Shown here: positions 6,022 to 56,868 of the stretch, one piece after another
How positions within the stretch are numbered: the first letter of the stretch is position 1
Layout: every line of letters begins with the position of its first letter
Source: Desulfoscipio sp. XC116
GTDB taxonomy: Bacteria; Bacillota; Desulfotomaculia; Desulfotomaculales; Desulfallaceae
Assembly (NCBI RefSeq): GCF_039851975.1
Contig: NZ_CP156660.1
Coordinates: forward strand, 1,741,035-1,805,034
Direction of reading: 5' to 3'
Length of the DNA stretch: 64,000 nucleotides
Made by a program: the position numbers and the translations under genes
The notes under the pieces: generated by a model
Databases searched by the model: none
The model's input: only the letters and a program-made list of their open reading frames with translations
What the model was told of the DNA's origin: nothing

Positions 6022-7974
6022 TTACGCTTTGTAAATAGCGTCGAATTTGCAGCCCAGCAAGCATGAGCCGCACTTGATGCACTTGGTTGTGTCGATAACG
6101 TGAGGCTCTTTTTTCTCGCCTGTGATGGCCCCGGCCGGGCAGTTCTTGGCGCACTTGCCGCAGCCTTTGCATTTTTCGGGGTCGATTTTAAATACCAGAA
6201 GGGCGCTGCAGGCACCGGCAGGACATCGCTTGTCCTGGATATGAGCAATGTATTCATCTTTGAAGTAGCGCAAGGTGGATAAAATGGGGTTGGGGCAAGT
6301 CTGACCAAGCCCGCATAGCGCAGTGTTTTTAACTACTCGTCCCAGGCGTTCTAAAGAATCCAGGTCCTCCATTTTCCCTTCACCGTTGCAGATGCGGGTT
6401 AAGATTTCCAGCATGCGCTTGGTGCCTTCCCGGCAGGGGGTACACTTGCCGCAGGACTCGGACTGGGTAAAGGTGAGAAAGAACCGGGCTACGTCCACCA
6501 TGCAGGTGGTTTCGTCCATGACCACCAGACCCCCCGAGCCCATCATAGCCCCGGCAGCGGTGAGAGAATCATAGTCTACCGGCAGGTCCAGGTTTTCTTC
6601 GGGAATACAGCCGCCGGACGGACCGCCAATCTGTACGGCTTTAAACTTCTTACCGTTTTGGATGCCGCCGCCGATGGTAAATATAATGTCCTTTAAGGTC
6701 ATACCCATCGGTACTTCTACCAGGCCCGTATTGTTTACTTTACCCGTCAGAGCGAAGATCTTGGTGCCCTTGCTCTTTTCGGTGCCCAGCTTGGCATAGT
6801 TTTCCCCGCCGTTGCGCAATATATGGGGCACGTTGGCGTAAGTTTCCACGTTGTTCAGGTTGGTGGGCTTGCCCCACAGACCGCTTTGGGCCGGGAAGGG
6901 CGGTCTTACTCTGGGCATGCCGCGGTTGCCCTCAATAGAGGTAAGCAGCGCGGTTTCCTCTCCGCACACAAATGCACCGGCACCGGCTTTAATTTTGATA
7001 TGGAAGTTAAAGCCGGAATTGAATATATTATCTCCCAATATGCCATATTGCTCGGCCTGGGCAATGGCAATTTTCAAACGCTCAATGGCCAGGGGATACT
7101 CGGCCCGCACGTAGATATAACCTTCATCGGCACCTACGGCGTAGCCGCAAATCATCATGCCTTCCAGTACGGCGTGGGGGTCGCCCTCCAGCACACTGCG
7201 GTCCATAAAAGCACCCGGGTCGCCCTCGTCGGCGTTGCAGACCACATATTTTTTATCTCCTGTCGCCTGGCGTACAAAGCCCCACTTCATACCGGTGGGG
7301 AAACCTGCACCGCCGCGGCCGCGCAGGCCGGACTTTTTCACGTCTTCAATGACCTCTTCGGGGGTCATGTCAAACAGGGCCTTCACAAAGCCGGCGTATC
7401 CATCGTTGGCGATGTATTCGGATACATTCTCGGGGTTGATGTGGCCGCAGTTATGCAGCACCATGCGCTGCTGCCTGGCGTAAAAGGGTACGTCATTATA
7501 GGTTTTAGCAAGTTCTCCGGTGGTGGGGTCTTTATAAAGCAGCCGCTCCACCACCTGGCCGCCCGCCAGGTTTTGCTCGACTATTTCCGGTACATCGCTC
7601 ACATCCACTCGCACATAGAAGATCTTGTCGGGCTCTACGATCATCAGCGGGCCCTGTTCGCAGAAACCGTGGCAGCCCGTGATGGTAATTTTTACTTTAT
7701 CCGTGAGGTTATGCTTTTGCAATTCTTCTTTTAATACAGCCACCAGTTTTTTTGAACCGGAAGAGGTACAGCCTGTACCGGCGCAAATGAGTATGTTTTT
7801 CTTGTCCGAACCGGCCGGCAGGTGTATGTCAGCCAGTAAATCCTGCCTTTTTTGCCGACAGGCGTCGTCGTCATGGCAAATAGGTCCTTCTTTTATGCAC
7901 TTGATGAAGTCCCGGCAGGGATTTTGTGGTTCGTGGGTGCATTTGTCACAGCATTTGTCCAATAGATTGTTCAA
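6022..7974 (-). CDS. NuoF/HydB-like NADH-binding flavin iron-sulfur subunit
   Basis: A 650-residue protein with this order: a Cys-rich N-terminus (CCDKCTHEP), a thioredoxin-like [2Fe-2S] domain (about 58-140, with CAGTGCTSSGS and GCHGFCEQGP), the NADH/FMN domain with GRGGAGFPTGMKWG (about 218-231), an SLBB region, the N3-type cluster ESCGKCTPCREGT, and a C-terminal two-cluster ferredoxin (CKGCGKCAKNC and CIKCGSCLLGC). This layout is that of HydB of electron-bifurcating hydrogenases and of NAD-dependent formate dehydrogenases. It takes electrons from or gives them to NAD(H). The TTG start at 7974 has AAGGAGG nine bases upstream. It lies 17 bp after the NuoE-like gene. Confidence 0.92.
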   Translation of the reverse strand: MNNLLDKCCDKCTHEPQNPCRDFIKCIKEGPICHDDDACRQKRQDLLADIHLPAGSDKKNILICAGTGCTSSGSKKLVAVLKEELQKHNLTDKVKITITGCHGFCEQGPLMIVEPDKIFYVRVDVSDVPEIVEQNLAGGQVVERLLYKDPTTGELAKTYNDVPFYARQQRMVLHNCGHINPENVSEYIANDGYAGFVKALFDMTPEEVIEDVKKSGLRGRGGAGFPTGMKWGFVRQATGDKKYVVCNADEGDPGAFMDRSVLEGDPHAVLEGMMICGYAVGADEGYIYVRAEYPLAIERLKIAIAQAEQYGILGDNIFNSGFNFHIKIKAGAGAFVCGEETALLTSIEGNRGMPRVRPPFPAQSGLWGKPTNLNNVETYANVPHILRNGGENYAKLGTEKSKGTKIFALTGKVNNTGLVEVPMGMTLKDIIFTIGGGIQNGKKFKAVQIGGPSGGCIPEENLDLPVDYDSLTAAGAMMGSGGLVVMDETTCMVDVARFFLTFTQSESCGKCTPCREGTKRMLEILTRICNGEGKMEDLDSLERLGRVVKNTALCGLGQTCPNPILSTLRYFKDEYIAHIQDKRCPAGACSALLVFKIDPEKCKGCGKCAKNCPAGAITGEKKEPHVIDTTKCIKCGSCLLGCKFDAIYKA

Positions 7975-37766: not shown

Positions 37767-37843
<77 letters not shown>

Positions 37844-38139: not shown

Positions 38140-39378
38140 TTATTTGCTTTGTGCTTTTGTTTTCTCGTTACCTTTCATGCGCTGAAAAACTTGCTCTAGT
38201 CTATCAGCTGCATCCCGGTCGGCACTTTTCAGATAATGCCCGTAGATGTCCATTGTTGTCCCGATTTTGGCATGTCTTAGTCTACCCGACACCGTTTTTA
38301 CTGGAGCGCCCGCGTTGATTAATAGAGTGGCGCTGGTATGTCTTAGACCGTGGAAATTGAGGTGCGGCAAGCCGTGTCTTTTGAGAAACTTCGGAAACCA
38401 GCTGCCAACCGTGTAGGGATGCATTGGGCGTCCGTCCCAGGTGGTAAAAAGCCTGTCTGACCCCTGCCACAGATCACCCGCCTTTAATCGCTCTTGTGCT
38501 TGGTGGGCCTTGTACTGTTTTAGCATAGCCATAACCGAAGGGGATACCGCTAATATATCCTCGGACATTTCAGTCTTGGGCTTCTTGGTGAACGTACCTT
38601 CGCCGGGTAAGTATTGGCTGGCCTGTTTGATTCTGACAGTGCCAATCGTAAAATCAACGTCATCCCATTCAAAACCCATTAATTCACCCTCGCGCACTCC
38701 GGTATCCAACGCAAGCACTACAGCCACCCGGTACTTTAGCGGTTCGTTCTCCAAGGCCGCGAGCATTGCCGTAACCTCTTGCTCATCATAGCATCTAGCC
38801 TGGTATTTCGGTACCCTTGGAGGCTTAACCCTGGCGGCTGGGTTTGTTGCTATAACCTGCCATTGAATGGCAGACTGCAAAATGGAGGATATTACCCGGT
38901 GGTGATGCCGGATATTGTTAGGGGACAGTCCCCCGGGTTTGCCGTCCTTCCGCACGCCGTCCTCCTGCAAGTTGGCGTAGAACTCCAGCAGATGGTTGGG
39001 CCTGATTTCCTCAAGCCGTAAATGTCCCATAGCCTCCAGGATCCTTGTTAGTTTTTCCTTGTAGCCATGCACAGTTTTTGGCTCAAGGTTCGGTTCGGCA
39101 TAGTCCCGAAGCCAGCGCTCTACAAAGTCACTAAAGGTTAGTTTCGCCGGGCAAATAAAAGCGCCCTTTTCGATTGCGTCAACAAATAAAGCAAGCTGTT
39201 TCTCCACTTCTCCGCGAATTTTGCAGCGGCTTATCTTTGCGCAACCCTTGCAGCTTGTCTTTTCGCAAGTCTGCTCAACGGTGATGGTTTTGGTTTTCTT
39301 GACCCGCCCGGTCGGCCCCTTGTCCGAATAAATTAGGCGCCATGAGCGCAGCCCGCGTTTTTCAAGACTACCTGCCAT
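38140..39378 (-). CDS. int: Tyrosine-type phage integrase
   Basis: A 412-residue site-specific recombinase. The N-terminal region contains a Cys cluster (CEKTSCKGCAKISRC, about 38-52) that may bind zinc. A SAM-like core-binding domain lies over about 82-175. The catalytic domain carries Arg229 (TGVREGEL), the HGLRH box with His343 and Arg346, His369 and the nucleophile Tyr379 in MDIYGHYL. It would recombine attP with the tRNA-Arg attB, and it lies about 300 bp from attL, pointing toward it. Only three bases separate it from the stop of the next minus gene, so the two share an operon. Confidence 0.95.
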   Translation of the reverse strand: MAGSLEKRGLRSWRLIYSDKGPTGRVKKTKTITVEQTCEKTSCKGCAKISRCKIRGEVEKQLALFVDAIEKGAFICPAKLTFSDFVERWLRDYAEPNLEPKTVHGYKEKLTRILEAMGHLRLEEIRPNHLLEFYANLQEDGVRKDGKPGGLSPNNIRHHHRVISSILQSAIQWQVIATNPAARVKPPRVPKYQARCYDEQEVTAMLAALENEPLKYRVAVVLALDTGVREGELMGFEWDDVDFTIGTVRIKQASQYLPGEGTFTKKPKTEMSEDILAVSPSVMAMLKQYKAHQAQERLKAGDLWQGSDRLFTTWDGRPMHPYTVGSWFPKFLKRHGLPHLNFHGLRHTSATLLINAGAPVKTVSGRLRHAKIGTTMDIYGHYLKSADRDAADRLEQVFQRMKGNEKTKAQSK

Positions 39379-39381
39379 GGA

Positions 39382-40371
39382 TTATACCTCCCTTAGATAT
39401 CTCTTAAAATAAGCTTCAAGCTTATTTGCGAGTTCGTCCCTACTCATATCCGCTCCATAAATCCTGTCCGCGTAATTCTTGAGTTTGTCATAATTCTCCG
39501 AGGACATTTTTCCTCGCGCCCTTCGCATTCTGAATCTTGCGAGGGCCTCATCCTTGGTCGTCTCCCCCCTTTGGCGTCGATTTTGCTGATATCTAACCCT
39601 GTCAAACGTCCTTGACTTCATGCTCCCCCACAGGCTAAACAGTGCGGCACTCATAACATCCGGCGGGGTTACCGTAAGTTTGCCGGTGAGCGGTTCTATC
39701 TGCGAAAAATTGCGCAAAACACTTAAATAGCGCCTAATATTTGTCCTAACAACCTTTTTGATGTAATCTGGCAGCTTTGAGCTTTCCCTGGGTATTGGAG
39801 CTGGCAGTTTGAGAAAGTAAAGGCCCGCGTCGTGGACAGCATGAGAATGTTCCGTCATCAACATAGGACTGCCATTATGCAAGTAAAGCCGATAATATTG
39901 GGGCGGCCCATTGAATATAGCAAGAAATTCTTCAACTTCAGGCTGTGCAACTTCAAGTGATAGCAATCTTCGAACCTTCAATTCGTCACGCCTGGCAGCA
40001 CTTTCCCATAGGTCGCTAACAAGCTTGAAAAAATCTAAAGCGTTCATGATTTGGCTAACTGGAGCCGGGTTATCTTTTATCAAAGGCCCGTACTCATTCC
40101 AGAAATTTACAAGACCATCTTTTTTTAACCCATAAACCACTGCGTGAATATTGTTTGCCAGTCTTTTCCCGCGATTTGTTTTTTCCCAAAATAAATATGG
40201 CGCTAAGTACTTCTCCCTCGGTTCGTAACCTTTTTCGACGGCGCGGCGGCGATGTTCCCAAAATTCAACCGCCCGCTTGTCTTTTGTTGGAATCTCCCAC
40301 GGCAGCCTGTTGTCAATCCGAGCCTCGCATTGACAGGGCGCTTTTAAAACAATCTCTGCTTCGATTTTCAT
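39382..40371 (-). CDS. Hypothetical protein upstream of the integrase
   Basis: A 329-residue soluble protein with a very basic C-terminal third (RVRYQQNRRQRGETT and RFRMRRARGKM). No HTH or enzyme motif is recognised. It occupies the position in which temperate elements often keep a repressor or maintenance gene and is transcribed with int. GGAG lies before the ATG at 40371, which is about 35 bp from the nearer palindromic operator. Confidence 0.7.
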   Translation of the reverse strand: MKIEAEIVLKAPCQCEARIDNRLPWEIPTKDKRAVEFWEHRRRAVEKGYEPREKYLAPYLFWEKTNRGKRLANNIHAVVYGLKKDGLVNFWNEYGPLIKDNPAPVSQIMNALDFFKLVSDLWESAARRDELKVRRLLSLEVAQPEVEEFLAIFNGPPQYYRLYLHNGSPMLMTEHSHAVHDAGLYFLKLPAPIPRESSKLPDYIKKVVRTNIRRYLSVLRNFSQIEPLTGKLTVTPPDVMSAALFSLWGSMKSRTFDRVRYQQNRRQRGETTKDEALARFRMRRARGKMSSENYDKLKNYADRIYGADMSRDELANKLEAYFKRYLREV

Positions 40372-40497: not shown

Positions 40498-40695
40498 ATG
40501 AATAGGGTTCGTGAAATTCGAAAGCAGAAGGGGCTTTCGCAGTTCGGGTTAGCGATGGCTGCGGAGATTCATCCGAGCGTTATCAGCCGCATCGAGTGCG
40601 AAGTATGGCCGCCGTATCCCAAGTGGAGACGGAAGCTGGCGGCAGCGTTGGGGGTGTCGGAAAACGAGCTTTTCTCGGAGGTGCCGAAGCAATGA
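40498..40695 (+). CDS. XRE-family Cro/CI-like regulator
   Basis: A 65-residue HTH protein that is essentially a bare DNA-binding domain: REIRKQKGLSQFGLAMAAEIHPSVISRIE over about 4-33. AGGAGGTGGG precedes the ATG at 40498, while the frame is open from 40465. It probably binds the palindromes just upstream and sets the balance between the int operon and the rightward operon. Its stop overlaps the next start (ATGA). Confidence 0.88.
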   Translation: MNRVREIRKQKGLSQFGLAMAAEIHPSVISRIECEVWPPYPKWRRKLAAALGVSENELFSEVPKQ

Positions 40696-40949
40696 TACAA
40701 TTAGGAATTTCTAGCACTGCACTCCGTGAGACCATGGGCGCAGGCGAGGCAGCAGCATTGCTGGGCGTGAGCCGGTGGTTAATATATGAAATGGTAAAAA
40801 GGCAGCAAATCCCCTGCGTACGGGCCGGTAAGCGGGTCTTGTTTCGCCGGGTGGCACTGGACGCATGGATGGACGCACAGGAACGGGGTAGCGTCGATGC
40901 GGAACCGGAAGCGCCCATGGAGCGGGGTGTCATCCGCCGGCTGAAATAG
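40692..40949 (+). CDS. xis: Excisionase-family HTH protein
   Basis: An 85-residue protein with the winged HTH_17 fold: MGAGEAAALLGVSRWLIYEMVKRQQIPCVRAGKRVLFRR. Such proteins are excisionases or regulators. It starts with the ATGA overlap at 40692, although the frame is open further upstream. It is a candidate excision factor for this element, though it is encoded away from int. Confidence 0.82.
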   Translation: MIQLGISSTALRETMGAGEAAALLGVSRWLIYEMVKRQQIPCVRAGKRVLFRRVALDAWMDAQERGSVDAEPEAPMERGVIRRLK

Positions 40950-40962
40950 GGGTGATTGTGAT

Positions 40963-41763
40963 ATGGCGCGTCCAGCCAAAGAAGGAATGGATTATTTCTC
41001 GCACGATACAGATGCCGTGAATGATCCGAAAATTGAGGTATTGCGGGCCTTATACGGTAATGACGGCTACGCGTTTTTCTTCATTCTTTTGGAACAAATT
41101 TACAAAAGCAGCGATTTCGAGGTAAACGTTTCTGACGCAGAAATGCAGCAGATATTCGCCAGAAAAGTATCAGTAACTCCGCAGAAATTTTCAGAAATGA
41201 TTCAGACTGCTGTAAAGTGGGGTTGCTTTGACAGGGAAGCATACGAAAAAAGAGGGGTTCTAACCAGCAACGGCATAAAAAAACGGGCTTCCGTGGTACT
41301 AAGAAAGCGAAAAAAGATGCGAGAAGAATATCGGGAAGCCAGGGATATCAAGCCTTCCGATGATGACAGAGTTTCTGACAGAGTTTCTGACGCAGAAACG
41401 CAGCAGAAAAAAGGCAGAAACACAGCAAAAACCCCTAAAGAAAAGGAAAGTAAAGGAAAGGATAAAGATATATATATTTCCGTGATAAATTTTCTAAACC
41501 AAAAAGCCGGGACCAATTACAAAGCGGCAACTAAAACAACGCAGCAGCTTATTGACGCAAGACTGAGCGAAGGATTCACAGAGACTGATTTCATCACAGT
41601 CATAGATAAAAAGACGTCCGAGTGGAAGGGCACAGATATGGCAAAGTATTTGCGGCCTGAAACACTTTTCGGGACAAAGTGCGAGTCATATCTCAATCAG
41701 TCAACCAGCGGGAAAAGCGCTGGCGACAATAACCATCCGGAAGGATTCGAGGTGATCAGATGA
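40963..41763 (+). CDS. Phage replication protein (DUF4373/Lin1244-like)
   Basis: A 266-residue protein. The N-terminal domain, with GMDYFSHDTDAVNDPKIEVL then YGNDGYAFFFILLEQIYKS, matches the Lin1244/Lin1753 type of replication initiators. A Lys/Glu-rich linker with repeated VSDRVSDAE text follows. The C-terminal domain, VINFLNQKAGTNYKAATKTT through KYLRPETLFGTKCESYLNQ, is the conserved phage replisome C-terminus. It probably loads the primase-helicase encoded next, whose ATG overlaps its stop. GGGGTGAT precedes the start. Confidence 0.85.
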   Translation: MARPAKEGMDYFSHDTDAVNDPKIEVLRALYGNDGYAFFFILLEQIYKSSDFEVNVSDAEMQQIFARKVSVTPQKFSEMIQTAVKWGCFDREAYEKRGVLTSNGIKKRASVVLRKRKKMREEYREARDIKPSDDDRVSDRVSDAETQQKKGRNTAKTPKEKESKGKDKDIYISVINFLNQKAGTNYKAATKTTQQLIDARLSEGFTETDFITVIDKKTSEWKGTDMAKYLRPETLFGTKCESYLNQSTSGKSAGDNNHPEGFEVIR

Positions 41764-43502
41764 ACCCCATGGAGTTTGCGCAAAAACACCTGCAACCGTA
41801 CAAAATCAACGGCGATGAGATAATCCCGGCACTTTGTCCTTTTTGCCACGGCGGGCAAAGTCAAGACAAACATACTTTCGCCCTAAATGCGGAAACCGGC
41901 GTGTACAACTGCAAACGCGGGAGCTGTGGTGCCACTGGCACATTCAGGCGATTGCTTCGAGAATTCGGAGAGGACACCCAAACCGATACTTTTCATCGGC
42001 GCTCAAGTAAGCAGTATAAAGCCCCGACCACGCAGGTGTCCGCGGCAGGTGACAAAGTGGCGTCGTACCTGAAAAAACGGGGCTTCTCCCCTGCTGTTTG
42101 GGAACGGCGCGGGGTCGGCGAATGCAAAGGCGCCGTTGCCATGCCGTACTACGAAAACGGCAATCTGGTGCTGGTGAAATTCAGGCCGGCGCATAAGCCT
42201 GGGCCGAATGAAAAAAAGGGCTGGCGTGAACCAGGCGGCAAGGCCGTTTTTTGGGGCATGGATCTTTGCACACCGGACAAGCCTCTGGTGATCTGCGAGG
42301 GAGAAATGGATGCCCTCGCCTTGGATGAGGCCATCGAAAATGTTGTGTCCGTCCCAAGCGGCGCAGAGGATTTGACCTGTGTAGGTAGCTGCTGGACATG
42401 GCTGGATAAATTCAAGCGGATAATCATCTGGGCCGACAATGACGTCCCGGGCCGGAAGCTGGAACGCAATCTAATTCAACGCCTGGGTGCTTGGCGGTGC
42501 AGCGTGGTTCGGCACTCATGTAAGGATGCGAACGAGGTGCTTCTGCTCCACGGCAAACAGGCGGTGGCCGATGCCGTGGCCGGAGCGGTTGGGGTACCTA
42601 TGGAGGGCCTTATAGCGCTGGCGGACGTGCCAATGCTGGACTACCGAGACGTGGCACGGGCACGGTCAGGTATCCGTGGCATAGACCAAACAATCGGTGG
42701 GTTTATGATGGGCGAGCTGTCCGTTTGGACTGGTATAAACGGTTCTGGCAAAAGCACATTACTAGGTCAGTTGCTCCTGGATGCTGTTGATCAGGGATTT
42801 GCAGTATGCGTCTACTCAGGTGAGCTTCCCGCCCGAATGTTCCGGTACTGGATCGATCTGCAGGCTGCAGGGCCGCAATTCCTGGAAATGCGGCATGATT
42901 TAGTCAGAGAACAGGACGTACCCCATGTCGCACCGGACGTTGCGAAAAAAATCCGTGCCTGGTACCGGGACAAGTTCTATCTGTTCGACAGTTTCGGAGC
43001 GGCGAAGGATAGCAAAATTCTTGAAGTGTTCGAATATGCTGCCCGGAGGCACGGTTGCAAAATTTTCATGGTTGATAACCTAATGACCACTGTTTTTACC
43101 GGGAATGATCGGGATTTCTACCGGCAGCAAAGCAACTTCATCGGCCAGCTGAAAGACTTTGCCCACCGGCTCGATGTACATGTGTACGTGGTGGCCCACC
43201 CACGAAAAACGCAAGGCCGACTAACCAAAATGGATATTTCCGGAAGCGGCGATATTTCAAATAGAGCTGATAATGTGTTTTCGGTACACCGTTGCGACAA
43301 GCAAGAAGCTGCGGAACTCGGTTGTGACACCATGATAGACATTTTTAAAAATCGGTTTTCTGGTCGGCAAGATGTGTCGGTACAGCTGCTTTTCGATAGT
43401 ACCTGCAAACGGTTTTGTATGGCCGGAGAGTGCGGGAAAATCGGCAAAAAATACGGCTGGCTAGAGACCAAAGAAGGGGACTATAGCCTTGAAGATTTCT
43501 GA
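41760..43502 (+). CDS. TOPRIM primase-helicase
   Basis: A 580-residue protein organised like phage T7 gp4. A zinc ribbon lies at 26-56 (CPFCH and CKRGSC). A TOPRIM primase core follows, with the Glu in VICEGEMDA (about 180) and the Asp pair in WADNDVPG (about 225-228). A RecA-like helicase has its Walker A in GINGSGKST (about 325-333) and Walker B in FMVDNL. It would prime and unwind at the element's origin, so the element can replicate on its own. The ORF is full-length without damage. It overlaps its neighbours on both sides, so the operon is compact. Confidence 0.92.
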   Translation: MNPMEFAQKHLQPYKINGDEIIPALCPFCHGGQSQDKHTFALNAETGVYNCKRGSCGATGTFRRLLREFGEDTQTDTFHRRSSKQYKAPTTQVSAAGDKVASYLKKRGFSPAVWERRGVGECKGAVAMPYYENGNLVLVKFRPAHKPGPNEKKGWREPGGKAVFWGMDLCTPDKPLVICEGEMDALALDEAIENVVSVPSGAEDLTCVGSCWTWLDKFKRIIIWADNDVPGRKLERNLIQRLGAWRCSVVRHSCKDANEVLLLHGKQAVADAVAGAVGVPMEGLIALADVPMLDYRDVARARSGIRGIDQTIGGFMMGELSVWTGINGSGKSTLLGQLLLDAVDQGFAVCVYSGELPARMFRYWIDLQAAGPQFLEMRHDLVREQDVPHVAPDVAKKIRAWYRDKFYLFDSFGAAKDSKILEVFEYAARRHGCKIFMVDNLMTTVFTGNDRDFYRQQSNFIGQLKDFAHRLDVHVYVVAHPRKTQGRLTKMDISGSGDISNRADNVFSVHRCDKQEAAELGCDTMIDIFKNRFSGRQDVSVQLLFDSTCKRFCMAGECGKIGKKYGWLETKEGDYSLEDF

Positions 43503-45215: not shown

Positions 45216-45701
45216 ATGAATAAAAAACCCCAAAAAACCGATTGGCTAGAAACGGAGGTGCTAGAGCCGGTACCCCGTGCATGGGAAGATAAACCGGCAC
45301 TGCGCGGGAACCAGAAAGATTACCCGCCGGAGGTGCGAGAACAAGCCGTACAGCTCGCCATTGAGCTAAAATCATCTGCAAAGGCTGCCAAACGATTAGG
45401 CATTGATCCCTCAACGGTGCGAAGTTGGGTGTCCCAAGAACTTGCAACGGGTGAAAGCGTTGACCCTGCTTGGAGCACAGGCGCCATCAAAGAAATCGAG
45501 CACAAAATAGATAAAATTTTGGCCCGGGTAGAGCCTGACAAAATAGATAAAGCTGGGCTCAGGGACCTAATTGTCGCTGCTGGAATCCTATTGGACAAGC
45601 GAGCGGCTATGCTTCCCAAGGCTAAAAATGAGGTACCCTGCCGGCTGCGCATCGTCTGGCGCGGCGGGCAAGGCGCCGCGGAAATTGAAAGTAAGGAGTG
45701 A
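45216..45701 (+). CDS. HTH protein, possible small terminase subunit
   Basis: A 161-residue protein. The middle (YPPEVREQAVQLAIELKSSA, then KRLGIDPSTVRSWV) is an HTH of the type found in phage small terminase subunits and in transposase-like regulators. A helical segment follows (IEHKIDKILARVE). The position ahead of tail genes would suit a small terminase, but the large subunit, portal and capsid genes that normally follow are absent. AAAGGATG precedes the ATG. Confidence 0.65.
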   Translation: MNKKPQKTDWLETEVLEPVPRAWEDKPALRGNQKDYPPEVREQAVQLAIELKSSAKAAKRLGIDPSTVRSWVSQELATGESVDPAWSTGAIKEIEHKIDKILARVEPDKIDKAGLRDLIVAAGILLDKRAAMLPKAKNEVPCRLRIVWRGGQGAAEIESKE

Positions 45702-45707
45702 GATTTT

Positions 45708-47501
45708 GTGACAATTGCATTAGCAGTGTCAACGCCAGAAGGTATTATTTTAGCATCTGAATCAAGAGCGATCATCGCGTCTAATAAATGGTTTAAGGAT
45801 TATACAAATAAAATCTACAGCGATGATTTTACAGTTTTAGAGGGTGATCATCCAAAAATTCACAAGGTTGGTCATTATACTCTAATATATTCAGGCATTA
45901 GCAATTTGAATGGGTGGACCTCAGATCAGGAGATAGCAAAGCTGCATCGCATGGCAACGGTCGGAACCGACTTTAAGATACTGGCAGATGGTTTCTATGC
46001 AAAATTGCGGAAGACACTAAAGGGATACGGATTTGGATTCCTGCTTTGCGGGTACGACCGTGGCGGTAATCAGCTATGGGCCGAGGGAACATCAGACAGT
46101 CCACTGGAGGTCAATGGTGGGCCCGGAACACAACCCATGTACTGCCTACGCGCTTTTGGCACTGTGGAAGCTATCGCAAAGCTATTTAAAGACGAGGTAA
46201 TCCATTATGAAAATATGTCGCTTCAAGATGCGTTCTCCTTCACGATGCTAAGCATGTCAGTAGGTTGCAAGTGCCTGGAGTGGTTCGACAGCTTACCTGC
46301 CGTATCTGGTGGCAATATCTACCTTGCGACGGTAACTCCTTGGGGGATAGCGGGCTACAAATTTCCACCGTACGATCCGTCAAAACCAGCACCCGCAATG
46401 CCGTGGCAAATACCAAACAATGCAACGCAGCCAGTCAGAAGCCATGGCATTGGTGGGTATATCTATTCCTCTTTATTTCGGTCAGGGACGCAGGATGCAA
46501 CCGACTACACGGAAATAGCCCAGGGGGACTCGCCGGTAAGGGTAGTCAAGGGCGGCAAGGTGGCGGCTGAACTATGGACGAGTACACGATTTGGCCTTGC
46601 CGGTGGTTCCGGTGGAGCTATTGTGCTTCGTAATGTTACAGTCGACGATATGCGGGGTTATATTACCGCATATCATGGACAGTTTGGGGATGGCCTGCTA
46701 GTCAATGCGGAGAACGATAACACCACCGAAAGGGACTTAATCCTAAAGGGGGATGCCGTAAGAGTTAAAGCGCGGGAGGTGTCTATAGATAACCCCCTGG
46801 GTCAGGTTGCAATGGGCGTCGTTGGTAATTTTAGAGTCTACGGTTCCTATGGAGGCGACATTGAACCTGCAACTAATGGAGACGGCGATATTGGCAACAG
46901 TTCAAAACGCTGGTACCAGGTGCGGGCCATTAACATCCAGTCCGGTGACCTGTGCTTTTCAGAAACCAGTTGCCCTATATGCGGCGAAAAATTCAAAAAT
47001 GGGGACGTTATAGTTCTTTTATGTAAAACCGTCCATGAGGACTTCGGAACCATGACCATTCCCATGCACGACAGATGCAAGGACACCCCGGCCATGGTGA
47101 CCGTGGAAGTGCCTGAAACCGAAACCCGGTACAGGTTTAACCCTGAAATCGGGGATATTGAGCCCTACCAGGTGTCAAAGTTCGTTGATCGGGAAAAAGA
47201 AACTCCCCAAGTTAAAGAAGGTTTCATGCTGGACGAATTAACCGGTCAATTCACAAGAAAAGCCCTTGTCGTGCCCCTTGCCAAAGAGGGGTATGTGGGA
47301 AAGCGCACCGAAACCGGCGTGGTGAAATTTTACAATGAGTCAACCGGCAAAGAGGTCCCGTTAAGAAGCATCATGGAACCGGTAGAGGTATTCCCGGAGC
47401 GGTTAGCCACGAGGCAAGAGGCTGTAGGAATGATTATGGTTAAGCGGCGGCGACCGGTAATGAGATGTATTACTATAAACACTGGACAGGCGGGGCTTTA
47501 A
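45708..47501 (+). CDS. Proteasome-like Ntn-hydrolase domain fused to a tail-fibre-like protein
   Basis: A 597-residue protein. Residues 2-220 resemble a proteasome beta-type or HslV-type fold. Thr2 would be N-terminal after Met removal, EGIILASESRA places Glu18 where Asp17 of proteasomes lies, and HPKIHKVGHYTLIYSG offers Lys50 as the Lys33 equivalent. Asp194 and the VSGG motif (Ser200) resemble the conserved Asp and Ser-Gly-Gly near the active site. About 300-415 looks like a phage fibre (GDIGNSSKRWYQVRAINIQS). A Cys/His group follows (CPICGEKF at 422, then CKTVHEDF and MHDRC). It might be a virion-borne hydrolase at the tail tip; activity is inferred. GTG start behind AAGGAG. The tape measure follows after 37 bp. 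Confidence 0.75.
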   Translation: MTIALAVSTPEGIILASESRAIIASNKWFKDYTNKIYSDDFTVLEGDHPKIHKVGHYTLIYSGISNLNGWTSDQEIAKLHRMATVGTDFKILADGFYAKLRKTLKGYGFGFLLCGYDRGGNQLWAEGTSDSPLEVNGGPGTQPMYCLRAFGTVEAIAKLFKDEVIHYENMSLQDAFSFTMLSMSVGCKCLEWFDSLPAVSGGNIYLATVTPWGIAGYKFPPYDPSKPAPAMPWQIPNNATQPVRSHGIGGYIYSSLFRSGTQDATDYTEIAQGDSPVRVVKGGKVAAELWTSTRFGLAGGSGGAIVLRNVTVDDMRGYITAYHGQFGDGLLVNAENDNTTERDLILKGDAVRVKAREVSIDNPLGQVAMGVVGNFRVYGSYGGDIEPATNGDGDIGNSSKRWYQVRAINIQSGDLCFSETSCPICGEKFKNGDVIVLLCKTVHEDFGTMTIPMHDRCKDTPAMVTVEVPETETRYRFNPEIGDIEPYQVSKFVDREKETPQVKEGFMLDELTGQFTRKALVVPLAKEGYVGKRTETGVVKFYNESTGKEVPLRSIMEPVEVFPERLATRQEAVGMIMVKRRRPVMRCITINTGQAGL

Positions 47502-47538: not shown

Positions 47539-50500
47539 ATGTCTGATGACGCTATTGTCTCTATTATATCAAGGCTGGGTGTAGATTATAGCCAAGCCAT
47601 TATGTCAACAAGACAACTAGCCAGCGAGACGGCAATGCTTGATAAGCAGCTAAAAATGATGAAAGTTACTGCCGCAAGCGTAGGGCGTGCGTCTGGTGCT
47701 GGTTTGGCGACTCAGCTTATGGGCGACAAGGTAATTTATGATCAATACGGCAGATCGCTGTCGGTTGTTAGCCTTAATGCCGCTGAAATGGCAAGGTCGA
47801 CAGAAACAGCTACACAGGCTGCCAAAAAGCACAAACAAACTGTCAGGGATTTAAACAACGAATATAGCGTGCTTGGGTCGCAAATGGAAAGAAGAATGTC
47901 ATGGTTCATCGCAGGATCGCTAGCATTCGGCAGCATAGCCGCCGCAGGTGCCGCGATAAGAACGATTACCGACGTCGAGATGGGTATGACGCAAATAGCC
48001 CGTATCACCGAGGACGCCACGTTCAACTTTAAGGGTATGCGCGACGAACTGCTTAAGCTTGGTCAGGAATACGGTAATACGTGGGCTACGGTGCAAGACG
48101 TATCGTTACGCTGGGCACAGGCTGGGTATGGCGTCAAGGATACGATGGAGCTTACCAGAGCTTCGCTGTTGGCTTTTAACACCGCTGAACTGGACGCAAG
48201 CTATGCGACACAAGGTCTTATCGCCATTATGGCGCAGTGGGGCATGACGGCCGAGCAGCTATTGCCAACAATTGACAAGATAAATAAAGTAGCGGATGAC
48301 TACGCCGTTACTTCACAAGATTTAGTGGACGGGCTTAACCGTTCCTCCGGTGCCGCCCACGTGCTTGGGATGAGCCTTGAGGAAACAATAGCTATCCTTA
48401 CCGTAATGCGCGAGGCCACAGGCCGTACCGGCCGTGAAGTGGGTAACGCGCTAAACAGTATTTTGAGTTTTATGCAACGCGACGTTGCCCTAAACGCTTT
48501 CGCCCGCGAGGGCATTGCCGTATGGGCCGACGAAGCACAAACGCAGTTCCGCAATTTTATTGATATTTTTGATGAAGTAGCGCAAAGATGGCCCAACATG
48601 AACGCCGCTTCGCAGGACATGTTCGTCCAAGCCGCTAATCAAGCTGGTTTGTATTCGGAGGAATTGGCTGGGGCGGTTGGCGTTCAAAAAGAATTCAACG
48701 ACCTGCAACAGCGTGACTTATCATCGGCCATGGCCGGTATCTACCGCCGTAATTACCTGTTGGCATTGCTGCAAAACTGGAGCAAGGTCCAGGATGTCTT
48801 GAATTCGCAACTGGACGCTGAAGGTTACTCCATGCGCGAGAACGAGCGCACAATGCAGACTCTTGCTAAGCAGTATGAAGCGTTAAAGAATGCGGCGCAA
48901 CAACTGGCCGTGGCTATTGGCGACGCTGGTTTGCTCAATGAACTTAAAAAAGTTGTCGATGGCACGAAGAATGCTATTGATGCCTTTAATAGCATCGACC
49001 ATGCCACGCGAAGCTTGATTATCAACTTTATCGAAGTTACCGCTACCTTAAAACTATTATCGGTAGCATTTAAAATGGTTGGCATATCAGGGTTGGCAAG
49101 CATAATGAGCGGCGCCGCTACCCCTATAAATAGAGCTGCCGGTGCGGCAAGGGGATTTGCCAGTGCGCTGGTAATGGCGCAAACAGCAGCTATCGGTACC
49201 GGCAGAAGTTTGGCTGCCTTATTTGGCGGGCCTGTAGGATTGGCTTTTACCGCCGCGACTACCGGTATTGTTCTTCTAAACAACCACATGAAACAGCAGG
49301 AGGCGCAGGCACAGCAGAACGCTGAAGCCGCGCAATCACTGACTCAGGAATACAACAATCTAAACGACCAACTGGCGACCACCAAGAAGGACGCGGACGA
49401 GTACAACACCCTTCAGGGTGAACTTCAGACCACAATGAACTCTATCGCCGACATAATGCCACAGGTAGTTGAACAGTGGGACAGCCAAGGTAACGCGATT
49501 AAAATTAATAATAATCTCTTGAGAGAGAATATTAAATTAGCACAGGAAGCGACCAGGGCCAATGCGATAAAAGACCTTGGGGACGCCGAGAAAAAAGTAG
49601 AAAAACTGAAAGAGGAACAAGCATCCCTTAATAAGCAGATCGCTGAAATCACGACACCGCAACCGGGACCGATAACAAGGGAATGGAGCCTCTACGGATA
49701 TGACTTGGAGCGATTTCCCGAAGAGGATTCCATGAGGGCGAAGCTTCGTCAAATCAGCAACGTAGATCTGCCAGCGGCTGAGGCCATTGTAAATAAAACT
49801 AAAACCATTCTTGGCTTAATACAAGATAGTGGTGATGGTGGAGGCGACGGAAACAAAGATAAAAACAATAAGGGTTATATTGGCGGCATTGGTGCTCCCG
49901 ACAAAAAGAAAGCTGCTGACGCCATCAAAGAGCAGATCCAATCCCTCACCGACGCCATAGCCATCCTTGACCTTGCCAACCAGCGGTACGAGGCTTCCCT
50001 TGCCCGCACCACCAACATGCTCAGTGTTAACGCCGCCGAGTATGATTACCTCACCGGCAAAATAGAGACTGGCACAGCTACATCTGCCGACTATGCCCGA
50101 GCACAGGAGCTTGTGGCTGTCAAAACGGCATTACTGGAGCAGGAGCAAAACCAGCTCATGGCTGCCAGCGATAAGTACCGTGCTGACATGGACGCACTAA
50201 CCCCTGTATTGTCCGAAGCTACCCGTCAGTATGAGGCGTTCAAAAAAGCCGGTGACGCCGAGCACATGGAACAGGCGGGGCAGGTCGTATCGCAACTGCA
50301 AAGCAAAATACAAAGCTTATCCAGCGCGGTTGCCCAAAACAGCGCCAAATGGTGGGAGAACCAGCGGGCGGTGGAGGAAGCGGCCCAGGCGCTTAGCACC
50401 GACTACCTAAACCGTCTTAATGATTGGATTAACCACTATGAATCTATCGGTCGCCTAACGAATGAACAGGCTCTTACTTATCTCGGAACCATAGACAAAA

Positions 50501-51978
50501 CAAAGCTAACTTTGCAAGACATGTGGCGATACGAGGAAGATATTTACAATCGCCGCCGACAAGCCTTGCAGGATGAAATGGACGAAATACAGGACGCATA
50601 TAACGACCGGTTAAAGATGATTGAGAATGAGATAGAGGCCGAGGAAGAAGCCACGGAAAGAAAGGTGGAAAGCAAGGAGAAGCGCATTGACGCCATTGAG
50701 GAGGAAACCAATGCGCAGATTGCGGCTATTCAGGCACTAATTGACGCTCTTGACATAGAAGGTGAACAATCAGACCGCGAGGAAGCCGAACGCCAGCACA
50801 ACCAAAAACTTGCCGACCTACAGGATGATTACAAATACCATGAGCTTCGTACCGGCGTTGAGCATCAACAGTCCATGGCCGATATCCAACGGCAGATGGC
50901 CGAGGAAGAACATGATTGGGAACTGCAAAAACAAGAGTGGGCGCGGCAAGACCAGCGGGACGTCTACCAAGACCAGATAGACGCCTTGCGTGAACAGGCT
51001 AAAACAAGGCAGGACGCCATCAGGGAAGAAATAAACGAAATCAAAAAGGCTTCCGACACCAAGAAGAAAGAACTGCAGGACTATTACGAGGAAGTCCAAG
51101 ACCTGATGAACGATAAATCATTGGACATGCTGGCTTCGCTGTCTACGTACGGGGATGAATACGTCGATAAAGTAGTAGAAATCATGCAAAGGATCAAGGA
51201 AGCCATAAAGAATAACGATATCTCCTTGCTGCCGGGGTTGACTGATGATTTAGAGGACGCCATAGGAGACGCTGAGGACTCCAGCAACAACCGCCCCCCG
51301 GCAGGAAGCGGCGATGGTGAAACGCAGGCTCCCGAGGAACAAAAGAAAGCCGTGGCCACGTTTACATCGGGTGAGTACGTCAATAAGAACGGCACCACCT
51401 ATGCCCAGGCGCGGGCCATAGCTAACGAGCTTGGCAAATCGGTGGATTGGGATAACGTAAAGAAAATCGCAACCATCGGCGGCAAATCATTCTCCGCTGA
51501 CTATATCGACGACGGCAAGGCATATCTCAATCTACGCAAGGTAGGCCAGGCTTTTGGCTACAATGTGTCCTTTGACAGCAAGTCAAAGGTGGTAAGCTAT
51601 TTCCCCAAAGCACACACCGGGGCCTATGTGACCGCCGGCGGTGTTGCCGAGTTGCTGAAAGGCGAGCGGGTGTTACCGCCGCAGCTAACTGTTAGCTTCG
51701 ACCGGCTGGCTGGTGTGCTGGCGAGTATCCCCAACATACCCGATAGAATAAGCCTTATGCAGCGGGGGGCTATGCTGACCAGCGGGGATATGGAACGCAT
51801 TGCCGGGAACATGACCGACAGAATAGTCCGCACCTTGGAACGCCGGGCGGGCGTTGAGATTGGTACATTATTCAATGTGGAGAGTGCTGAATTCGCTGAT
51901 CGCACTGGCATGGAACAAACAGGCAGAGAGATAGCACGCGCAGTAAACGCATTGCGCACAACAAGGGGCGGTGGTTGA
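47539..51978 (+). CDS. Phage tail tape measure protein with a copper-amine-oxidase-N-like domain
   Basis: A 1479-residue intact protein. Residues about 120-320 are the TP901-type tape measure core (LAFGSIAAAGAAIRTI, later TSQDLVDGLNRSSGAAHVLGM). Hydrophobic segments occur at about 480-600. A long charged coiled coil covers about 1010-1195. Residues about 1273-1355 (YVNKNGTTYAQARAIANELG, later YLNLRKVGQAFGYNVSF) resemble the copper amine oxidase N-terminal domain, a cell-envelope-associated module. The end has a VAELLKGERVLPPQ motif common in tape measures. Tape measures set tail length, roughly 1.5 angstrom per residue, so about 220 nm here. No tail tube or chaperone genes precede it. AAAGGAG lies before the ATG. 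Confidence 0.93.
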   Translation: MSDDAIVSIISRLGVDYSQAIMSTRQLASETAMLDKQLKMMKVTAASVGRASGAGLATQLMGDKVIYDQYGRSLSVVSLNAAEMARSTETATQAAKKHKQTVRDLNNEYSVLGSQMERRMSWFIAGSLAFGSIAAAGAAIRTITDVEMGMTQIARITEDATFNFKGMRDELLKLGQEYGNTWATVQDVSLRWAQAGYGVKDTMELTRASLLAFNTAELDASYATQGLIAIMAQWGMTAEQLLPTIDKINKVADDYAVTSQDLVDGLNRSSGAAHVLGMSLEETIAILTVMREATGRTGREVGNALNSILSFMQRDVALNAFAREGIAVWADEAQTQFRNFIDIFDEVAQRWPNMNAASQDMFVQAANQAGLYSEELAGAVGVQKEFNDLQQRDLSSAMAGIYRRNYLLALLQNWSKVQDVLNSQLDAEGYSMRENERTMQTLAKQYEALKNAAQQLAVAIGDAGLLNELKKVVDGTKNAIDAFNSIDHATRSLIINFIEVTATLKLLSVAFKMVGISGLASIMSGAATPINRAAGAARGFASALVMAQTAAIGTGRSLAALFGGPVGLAFTAATTGIVLLNNHMKQQEAQAQQNAEAAQSLTQEYNNLNDQLATTKKDADEYNTLQGELQTTMNSIADIMPQVVEQWDSQGNAIKINNNLLRENIKLAQEATRANAIKDLGDAEKKVEKLKEEQASLNKQIAEITTPQPGPITREWSLYGYDLERFPEEDSMRAKLRQISNVDLPAAEAIVNKTKTILGLIQDSGDGGGDGNKDKNNKGYIGGIGAPDKKKAADAIKEQIQSLTDAIAILDLANQRYEASLARTTNMLSVNAAEYDYLTGKIETGTATSADYARAQELVAVKTALLEQEQNQLMAASDKYRADMDALTPVLSEATRQYEAFKKAGDAEHMEQAGQVVSQLQSKIQSLSSAVAQNSAKWWENQRAVEEAAQALSTDYLNRLNDWINHYESIGRLTNEQALTYLGTIDKTKLTLQDMWRYEEDIYNRRRQALQDEMDEIQDAYNDRLKMIENEIEAEEEATERKVESKEKRIDAIEEETNAQIAAIQALIDALDIEGEQSDREEAERQHNQKLADLQDDYKYHELRTGVEHQQSMADIQRQMAEEEHDWELQKQEWARQDQRDVYQDQIDALREQAKTRQDAIREEINEIKKASDTKKKELQDYYEEVQDLMNDKSLDMLASLSTYGDEYVDKVVEIMQRIKEAIKNNDISLLPGLTDDLEDAIGDAEDSSNNRPPAGSGDGETQAPEEQKKAVATFTSGEYVNKNGTTYAQARAIANELGKSVDWDNVKKIATIGGKSFSADYIDDGKAYLNLRKVGQAFGYNVSFDSKSKVVSYFPKAHTGAYVTAGGVAELLKGERVLPPQLTVSFDRLAGVLASIPNIPDRISLMQRGAMLTSGDMERIAGNMTDRIVRTLERRAGVEIGTLFNVESAEFADRTGMEQTGREIARAVNALRTTRGGG

Positions 51979-53968: not shown

Positions 53969-54136
53969 TTGGCAGATTGGATTACCGAAGAAGAATTATG
54001 TGAGTGGTTAAAGATCAAGCGAATGACCGCTTACAGGTGGAGAAAGGCGGGGATGCCCCATATAGGCAGTCGAAAAAGCATCCGGTACAACAAAGAAGAA
54101 GTTGAGCAATGGTTAAAAGAAAAGGCGGTAAAGTAA
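53969..54136 (+). CDS. Small excisionase/MerR-like HTH protein
   Basis: A 55-residue winged HTH protein (ITEEELCEWLKIKRMTAYRW, later IGSRKSIRYNKEEVEQWL) of the HTH_17 family of excisionases and phage regulators. TTG start with GGAGGTGG upstream and an in-frame stop immediately before it. It is the second such protein in the element and is expressed from a perfect promoter. Confidence 0.82.
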   Translation: MADWITEEELCEWLKIKRMTAYRWRKAGMPHIGSRKSIRYNKEEVEQWLKEKAVK

Positions 54137-55954: not shown

Positions 55955-56221
55955 ATGACGTTTGGGTTAACACTGCCTAAAGCCTTGCGGCACAAGGGAT
56001 TGACGGCTATTTTTGCGGCATATTCATGTAAAGATACAGGGGTGTCACGCCCATGTCACGCGATGTCACGCCCATGTCACGCGATGTCACGCCCATGTCA
56101 CAATGTCACACCGATGTCACGCGATGTCACGCCCTATACACAGATACAGATAATACACAGATATATAAAAATAATATGTGTGTTTTTTGACTTGTCCGTG
56201 ACAAGGGGTAATCTGGAATGA
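55955..56221 (+). other. Tandem 21-bp repeat, possible remnant of a replication gene or iterons
   Basis: GATGTCACGCCCATGTCACGC-like units recur between about 56039 and 56135, all built on ATGTCACGC. An 88-codon frame across it reads SRPCHAMSRPCHAMSRPCH, then a PYTQIQ stretch. Similar repeats occur in the linker of phage DUF4373-type replication proteins, so this may be the broken centre of a second such gene. Alternatively the repeats are iterons of a replication origin. No intact gene is supported. Confidence 0.45.
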
Positions 56222-56819: not shown

Positions 56820-56868
56820 CGGACTTCTAATCCGTAGGCCGCGGGTTCGAATCCCTCCCGGGAGGCCA
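56820..56868 (+). repeat. attR: 49-bp direct repeat of tRNA-Arg
   Basis: Identical to 37795-37843. The 5' half of the tRNA is absent here, so this copy is not a functional tRNA. It marks the right end of the element and carries the original chromosomal 3' end. Confidence 0.93.

Follow-up and report, generated by a model that had tools for sequence, protein, structure and literature searches.

The protein encoded at 45708-47501 on the forward strand of the window (the whole stretch of 64,000 nucleotides of Desulfoscipio sp. XC116 that was analysed) carries at its front a domain that belongs to the proteasome-like Ntn-hydrolase family, and the rear half of the same protein is related to phage tail proteins. 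The domain covers residues 1-224 (45708-46379) and is recognised by profile matches to the PDB, Foldseek, PF00227 and conservation. The gene has a GTG start, encodes 597 aa and begins 6 nt behind the end of an HTH gene, with a Shine-Dalgarno-like AGGAG at 45694-45698 (+), 9 nt upstream of the GTG. Behind the Ntn domain lie a tail-fibre-like module in residues 249-381 (46452-46850, +), which matches the C-terminal parts of tail proteins elsewhere, and a C-terminal module in residues 384-597 (46857-47498, +), which shows 33-50% identity to the C-terminal parts of other proteins and of element fibres. The family and fold, the catalytic residues, the start site, the relation of the rear half to tail proteins, the ends of the carrier element and the company of genes were all obtained by computation.

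The sequence-only reading had proposed a proteasome-type fold for the first 220 residues, and this proposal was borne out by family profiles and by structure comparison. A profile of 17 aligned family sequences (A4) gave 165 distinct matches to PDB sequences at E<=1, with a best E of 3.8e-7, and every one of the best 60 of these 165 was a proteasome subunit. Narrower profiles were weaker than A4 and pointed the same way: the profile of T-type, element-only sequences (A7) gave proteasome entries in 42 of 46 rows at E<=10 (best E 0.0069), the other four being FtsA, exopolyphosphatase, a phosphatase-like receptor and THR6, while the profile of S-type, element-only sequences (A5) gave them in 32 of 33 rows at E<=10 (best E 0.0072), and A7 and A5 matched each other at a profile-profile probability of 98.3%. 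PF00227 matched 9 of the 17 family members at E<=1, with a best E of 1.5e-5; the window protein itself scored 14.1 bits (E 0.038), below the gathering cut-off of 22.4, and a search of the host genome with PF00227 returned one match, the HslV of the organism at another place, and did not recover the Ntn-fibre gene. The whole 597-aa protein gave no Ntn match in Pfam, PHROGs or NCBIfam, and phmmer with the whole protein against the PDB matched residues 416-486 to gelsolin (E 1.5) and residues 4-173 to proteasome alpha5 (E 1.9), with no further row.

An AF2 model built from 3 sequences is of low confidence (pLDDT 51, pTM 0.53), with pLDDT under 50 in residues 1-47 and 142-242. Foldseek of this model against the PDB gave 266 rows at E<=0.001 (best E 2.8e-6, prob 1.00), and the best 50 of these 266 comprised 49 proteasome entries and 1 Anbu. 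VIA-align reached Z up to 9.6, with 9f9p_H at Z 9.3 over 167 aligned residues and an rmsd of 4.3, against a best Z of 7 to 8 that, according to the tool's own note, is common for models lacking a clear match in Foldseek; identity to proteasome-type structures was 9-20% among the VIA rows listed. A structure search of BFVD gave one row at E<=0.001, a nameless record. The fold search, named beforehand as the point at which the proposal could fail, thus returned proteasome-like structures in its best 50 rows. The profile-profile match to HslV that the same reading had looked for failed, as hhalign of A7 against the HslV of the same order gave no match (probability 0.7%, E 0.087), and an HslV-type protease was rejected on this ground. 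A plain tail fibre with chance motifs was likewise rejected, on profiles, fold and conservation.

An HMMER alignment to the beta chain 9f9p_H, on whose printed form the proteasome residue numbers were counted by hand, places T2, E18, R20, K50 and G63 of the window protein on T1, D17, R19, K33 and G47. The codons lie on the forward strand at 45711-45713 (Thr2), 45759-45761 (Glu18), 45765-45767 (Arg20), 45855-45857 (Lys50) and 45894-45896 (Gly63), and that of Ser200 at 46305-46307. The family alignment (A4, n=17) comprises 6 element-borne T-type sequences, 4 element-borne S-type sequences and 7 others labelled chromosomal by their neighbours; it leaves out near copies and repeats (L021, L022, L024 and later ones), the truncated L042 and L032, which is the second piece of the L029 gene, and L014 is counted from its GTG start, one codon inside the aligned row. 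Two residues named in the sequence-only reading, a Thr directly behind Met and Lys50 ahead of IHKVGHYTLIYSG, are present in the window protein and are conserved among the homologues: the start codon is followed immediately by T or S (position 1) in 17/17 members and K33 is found in 17/17. R19 is kept in 14/17 and G47 in 16/17. The Glu-Ser-Arg (18-20) read in the place of the conserved Asp is present as well, but Glu is specific to the 6 T-type members; position 17 is D or E in 17/17, with Asp in the other 11. The start codon preceding T/S has a Shine-Dalgarno-like match of 4-5 nt on its 5' side in all 17 members, a raw count in which L029 enters with a near AGGAG seen by eye, a far one having been set aside.

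In the six element-borne T-type sequences, that is, the window protein and five relatives that share 27-58% identity with it, the invariant residues include M1, T2, I3, E18, R20, K50, S62, G63, S200 and G202. The Asp with a Ser200-Gly-Gly motif is also present, but this Asp lies 6 residues upstream of the Ser rather than 3 as in the proteasome, where we take the corresponding pair to be D166/S169, and Ser200 did not hold up as a conserved site residue: position 200 is Ser in the 6 T-type members, Cys in 7 and Val in 4 of the other 11. Glu18 accompanies Ser200 in 6/6 T-type members, and the 11 members with Asp have Cys (7) or Val (4); this co-occurrence suggests that the two are coupled changes of a putative active site. 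In a maximum-likelihood tree of the 17 sequences, the T-type and S-type members form supported groups (98/98 and 100/100), and the grouping of the 7 non-element sequences on the same tree is weak (56/21).

Relatives are few. With the whole protein as query, 13 of 100 genomes of the same genus, family or order matched, the own genome included, many of them by the rear part only; a query restricted to residues 1-224 matched 6 of 113 genomes. An 8-row profile matched 9 of 113 genomes of the class and 8 of 398 in a sample of the phylum, the own genome being in each count. Two relatives lie on contigs of MAGs of Pelotomaculum, presumably a Firmicute. Among the 4 genomes searched in the order of G196, only G196 itself matched. 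A tblastn search with five queries (the window, L025 and L045 Ntn-fibre proteins, L026 and L027) found nothing in 50,697 phage records, tblastn with the window protein found nothing in 72,556 plasmid records, and the IMG/VR scans gave no relative.

The description of the rear half as a tail fibre with a Cys/His group holds, since tail-related modules and a CxxC...HxxC group are found there; a Prok-RING match to this group is weak (E 0.014, under the family cut-off in the Pfam scan). Stretches within residues 248-594 are 27-50% identical to proteins encoded in other genomes. When seven long ORFs that match the rear half were compared with PHROGs, five (L006, L007, L009, L012 and L013) fell into tail families and L005 and L008 gave no match, and in a Pfam scan of L006, L007, L012 and L013 all four carried Prophage_tail PF06605 in the front part. 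The matches that carry PF06605 correspond to the module at residues 249-381 in L007, L012 and L013 and to the C-terminal module in L006. The same modules therefore stand behind a Tal-type domain in those proteins and behind an Ntn domain here. The Ntn domain is fused to the fibre in four loci (the window, L043, L045 and L003) and is a separate gene directly 5' of the fibre gene in L044/L049, L048, L050 and L053, and the two genes overlap by 4 nt in L044 and by 14 nt in L050. No window-type fibre was found in L046 and L051, and in L051 the gene after the Ntn gene encodes a different protein without a Pfam match. At 6271-7299 (-) of L043 there is a Cu_amine_oxidN1 protein (PF07833, E 5.5e-37), and this protein or its homologs adjoin the fibre end in five elements other than that of the window (L043, L044/L049, L048, L050 and, weakly, L051).

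The gene is carried by an element of 19,074 bp from att to att (about 19.1 kb), bounded by a 49-nt exact repeat, one copy of which (37795-37843, +) forms the 3' end of a tRNA-Arg(TCT) gene at 37767-37843 and the other of which lies at 56820-56868 (+). The order of genes begins with a tyrosine integrase (38140-39378, -; PF00589 E 2.3e-24, PHROG integrase E 8e-73) and a 329-aa protein without a family match beside it (39382-40371, -), followed on the forward strand by an excisionase-like HTH protein (40596-40949; phrog_66 E 2.4e-10), a replication initiator (40963-41763; Lin1244_N / Phg_2220_C), a primase-helicase (41760-43502; phrog_239 E 3e-92), small ORFs, the HTH protein of the A9 family (45216-45701), the Ntn-fibre gene and a tape measure of 1479 aa (47539-51978; PHROG 4211 E 3e-78, TIGR01760, PF10145, PF07833). 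Short and regulatory-looking ORFs lie 3' of the tape measure. A Cu_amine_oxidN1 domain occupies residues 1281-1313 inside the tape measure; a homolog (357 aa) of the 329-aa protein lies near the L048 integrase (E 7e-32); and four imperfect ATGTCACGC-type repeat copies about 20 nt apart are found at 56042-56134, near one end of the element.

Head genes were sought with PHROGs on 15 ORFs of the element and with one single-family profile, that of the PF04860 portal. None of these 15 ORFs was recognised as encoding a head protein, and the tape measure was their only strong structural match. Weak small-terminase PHROG matches fell on HTH proteins, with E 0.036 for the conserved HTH protein; a 55-aa ORF at 53969 matched a small terminase at E 6.5e-4 and an excisionase at E 2e-8. 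A complete prophage was rejected, as no head gene was recognised among the scanned ORFs and the element is compact. The PF04860 portal was absent from the 4.26-Mb host genome, so that no resident helper was recognised by this search. Judged by its genes, the carrier looks like a satellite-like element integrated at tRNA-Arg, with no recognisable full prophage; the sequence-only reading of a phage tail protein is thus upheld for the tail-related rear, but not for the carrier, in which no full phage is recognisable.

A second complete element was found in G068 (L045), where 18.6 kb lie between 59-nt exact repeats at a tRNA-Leu gene and the order is replication genes, HTH, small genes, tape measure, Ntn-fibre and integrase; when 10 of its ORFs were compared with PHROGs, the tape measure was again the only structural match. 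The integrases of L048, L049 and L051 lie <200 bp from tRNA genes, and five kinds of tRNA gene are found near the integrases across the Ntn elements. Under the settings used, an att repeat was detected in none of L051, L048 and L049, the last two of which end at a contig end. The A9 HTH family has members at 10 loci, which amount to 9 elements since L044/L049 are near-identical copies in two genomes. Its pairing with the Ntn gene in the window recurs in eight more elements, that is, in 9/9 of those with room upstream. Two cut contigs that lack the HTH gene, L003 and L053, stand outside this count. The family was found in 0/6 stretches (3.1 to 20 kb) around other Ntn genes (L095-L100; L039 was not extended). 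A homolog of the tape measure is present in 5 of 11 element loci (the window, L045, L046, L052 and L003) and was not found in L043, L044/L049, L048, L050, L051 and L053, some of which are cut contigs; the tape measure and the Ntn protein are therefore not obligate partners. What stays constant is thus the pairing of HTH and Ntn (9/9); a fibre usually goes with it, and the tape measure is optional.

The HTH protein is perhaps a small terminase, to judge from weak matches. Against the PDB the A9 family matched the phage protein 2ao9 (E 0.0013); against PHROGs, the small-terminase PHROG 141 was matched by 3/9 members (best E 0.011, weak) and the transposase PHROG 151 by 5/9 (best E 1.5e-4). The model of the HTH protein is of low confidence and its Foldseek search gave no row at E<=0.001. 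At 1282-1824 in L044 and 4069-4566 in L048, a second small protein that looks by eye like a small terminase is encoded 5' of the conserved HTH gene. The PF04860 portal occurs in 5/9 Ntn-bearing genomes, always on contigs other than that of the Ntn gene; several of those contigs are short, and G196:C19 measures 421 kb.

In 2021, Fuchs, Alva and Lupas described 22 new proteasome homologs, among them FC4, a Firmicute homolog of group II with C-terminal domains that resemble phage tail proteins (PMC8665760). The homolog table of that paper marks FC4 in Firmicutes only and not in phages; in its available text the authors report no genomic neighbourhood that would hint at what the new homologs do, and no FC4 structure is shown because they doubted the model (PMC8665760). 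The paper is cited by PMC13022661. The sequence-only reading had known of no described phage system of this kind, which goes too far in that FC4 is already in print, though without context or function in the available text (PMC8665760). Beyond FC4, the literature searched, which held few subscription papers and no preprints, gave to judge by the listed entries no account of proteasome-like domains in tails or satellites, and no Ntn domain in a tail was seen among the PDB rows listed.

The explanation that we favour, and to which we give an even chance, is that an FC4-like Ntn hydrolase with a tail-tip fibre serves as tip hydrolase or maturase of a chimeric tail built with helper parts. Met-Thr and Met-Ser are standard substrates of methionine aminopeptidase. 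We infer processing by this enzyme, catalysis, assembly into a virion and dependence on a helper as a chain of steps, in which the host methionine aminopeptidase would remove the initiator Met and thereby expose Thr1 without a propeptide; Thr1 would then act as nucleophile and Lys33 as base, with Glu17 in the place of Asp17 and Gly47 in the oxyanion hole. During growth of a helper phage, the element would supply its own tape measure and the Ntn-fibre to a chimeric tail, and the rest of that tail would come from parts of the helper, by analogy with the PLE satellites that have a tape measure of their own. The Ntn domain would replace a Tal-type domain ahead of the same fibre modules, and at the tip it would work as a hydrolase or as a maturase of tail parts. 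As the element has tail genes without recognised head genes, the Ntn-fibre may equip borrowed virus tails with an enzyme. The T-type members carry Glu17, with which activity is putative, and this counts against the explanation; the low pLDDT, the mismatch to HslV, the sub-cut-off PF00227 score and the non-universal occurrence of Ser200, the tape measure and the fibre also count against it, as do the weakness of the small-terminase reading, the lack of a PF04860 portal in the host genome and the failure to see an Ntn domain in a tail among the PDB rows and papers listed. A further-reaching version of the same idea, which we regard as unlikely, is that a class of Bacillota phage satellites assembles chimeric tails with a ring of proteasome-like subunits, bearing an exposed Thr/Ser Ntn hydrolase, as the hub at the tip; as part of it, a six-fold or three-fold tail end would attack the host envelope or ripen tail parts, and the satellite fibre, together in some elements with the tape measure, would set host range and tail length.

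The protein might instead act inside the cell, as an Ntn protease or maturase that cuts tail proteins of the helper or the satellite, for instance the tape measure or the fibre, and the fused fibre would then be a substrate or targeting part and not a means of display on the virion. The separate Ntn gene of several elements, unfused to the fibre, and the retained proteasome-like residues of the active site are consistent with such a role, and satellites have been reported, in the available text of two papers, to interfere with tail assembly (PMC11364771, PMC12987554). A location in the tail is favoured by the four loci in which the Ntn domain is fused to the fibre and by the kinship of the rear modules with tail-tip proteins, and we hold an intracellular protease to be rather unlikely, though worth keeping in view. 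The fold could also be catalytically dead and purely structural, serving as an adaptor, perhaps ring-shaped, through which the fibre is attached to the tail where a Tal-type domain would otherwise stand. Such a use of the fold has a precedent in the catalytically inactive alpha subunits of the proteasome (PMC8665760, available text), and the Glu that replaces Asp at position 17 in all 6 T-type members would suit it. A dead domain need not keep T/S1, Lys33, their exact spacing to D/E17 and a start codon directly before T/S, so that the conservation of the first two in 17/17 members, with the spacing and start, counts against a dead adaptor, which we consider quite improbable.

A remaining account, to which we attach little credence, sees in the carrier an ordinary prophage in decay that has lost its head genes and retains the integrase, replication genes and two tail genes. 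Ordinary prophages have related tape measures and tail modules, and the lack of a PF04860 portal in the host genome agrees with such a loss. Against decay, a similar company of genes recurs in nine elements whose integrases lie near five kinds of tRNA gene, and there are intact long ORFs and two complete att pairs, 18.6 and 19.0 kb apart. Among the loci seen, no element combined the same integrase, HTH and Ntn genes with a full set of head and tail genes.

The finding that an FC4-like domain lies on satellite-like elements joins two threads, the FC4 proteasome homologs and the satellites that carry tape measures. It adds elements that carry a tape measure and no recognised head genes, a pattern of the kind described in 2026 for PLEs (PMC12987554, available text). 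The proteasome homologs of 2021 had no known role, and the satellite-like elements, the HTH protein and the company of the fibre give them one that can be tested. Should the domain be active, the tail would contain a hydrolase that uses an N-terminal threonine.

Among known systems, PICI/SaPI elements are small, have an integrase beside a tRNA gene and carry replication genes and a small terminase. The window element resembles them in size, integrase beside a tRNA gene, replication genes and a possible small terminase, and differs from them in its tape measure and Ntn-fibre and in that no capsid-redirecting gene was recognised. It has been reported that PLE satellites encode a tape measure, TAC and baseplate hub and build chimeric tails, and that putative tmp genes also occur in PLE-like elements and some cf-PICIs (PMC12987554, available text). 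Like these satellites, the window element is small and has its own tape measure and a protein of the tip or baseplate side; the PLE satellites rely on a phage for the remaining tail parts (PMC12987554, available text), and the window element would do so too. In PLE11, TAC and BhuB stand beside TMP and the tails are the contractile ones of ICP1 (PMC12987554, available text), whereas in the window element the Ntn-fibre stands in the place of the tip protein and no TAC was recognised. Proteasome beta subunits, Anbu and HslV share with the window protein the fold and the T1, K33 and G47 pattern by alignment, and are set apart from it by low identity, by its fusion to a tail protein, by its lack of a propeptide and, for HslV, by the missing profile match. 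The phage-carried homologs PPH and AAH, which belong to group I and of which PPH has about 140 residues (PMC8665760, available text), are likewise proteasome-like; the window protein differs from them in that the family is fused to or placed beside a tail fibre, and by description its closest fit is group II and not group I. FC4 comes nearest, being, like the window protein, a Firmicute protein of group II with a proteasome-like front and a phage-tail-like C-terminus, a likeness drawn by description alone (PMC8665760, available text). The window protein departs from FC4 as published there in that Glu17 replaces Asp17 and in that it is carried by a satellite-like element.
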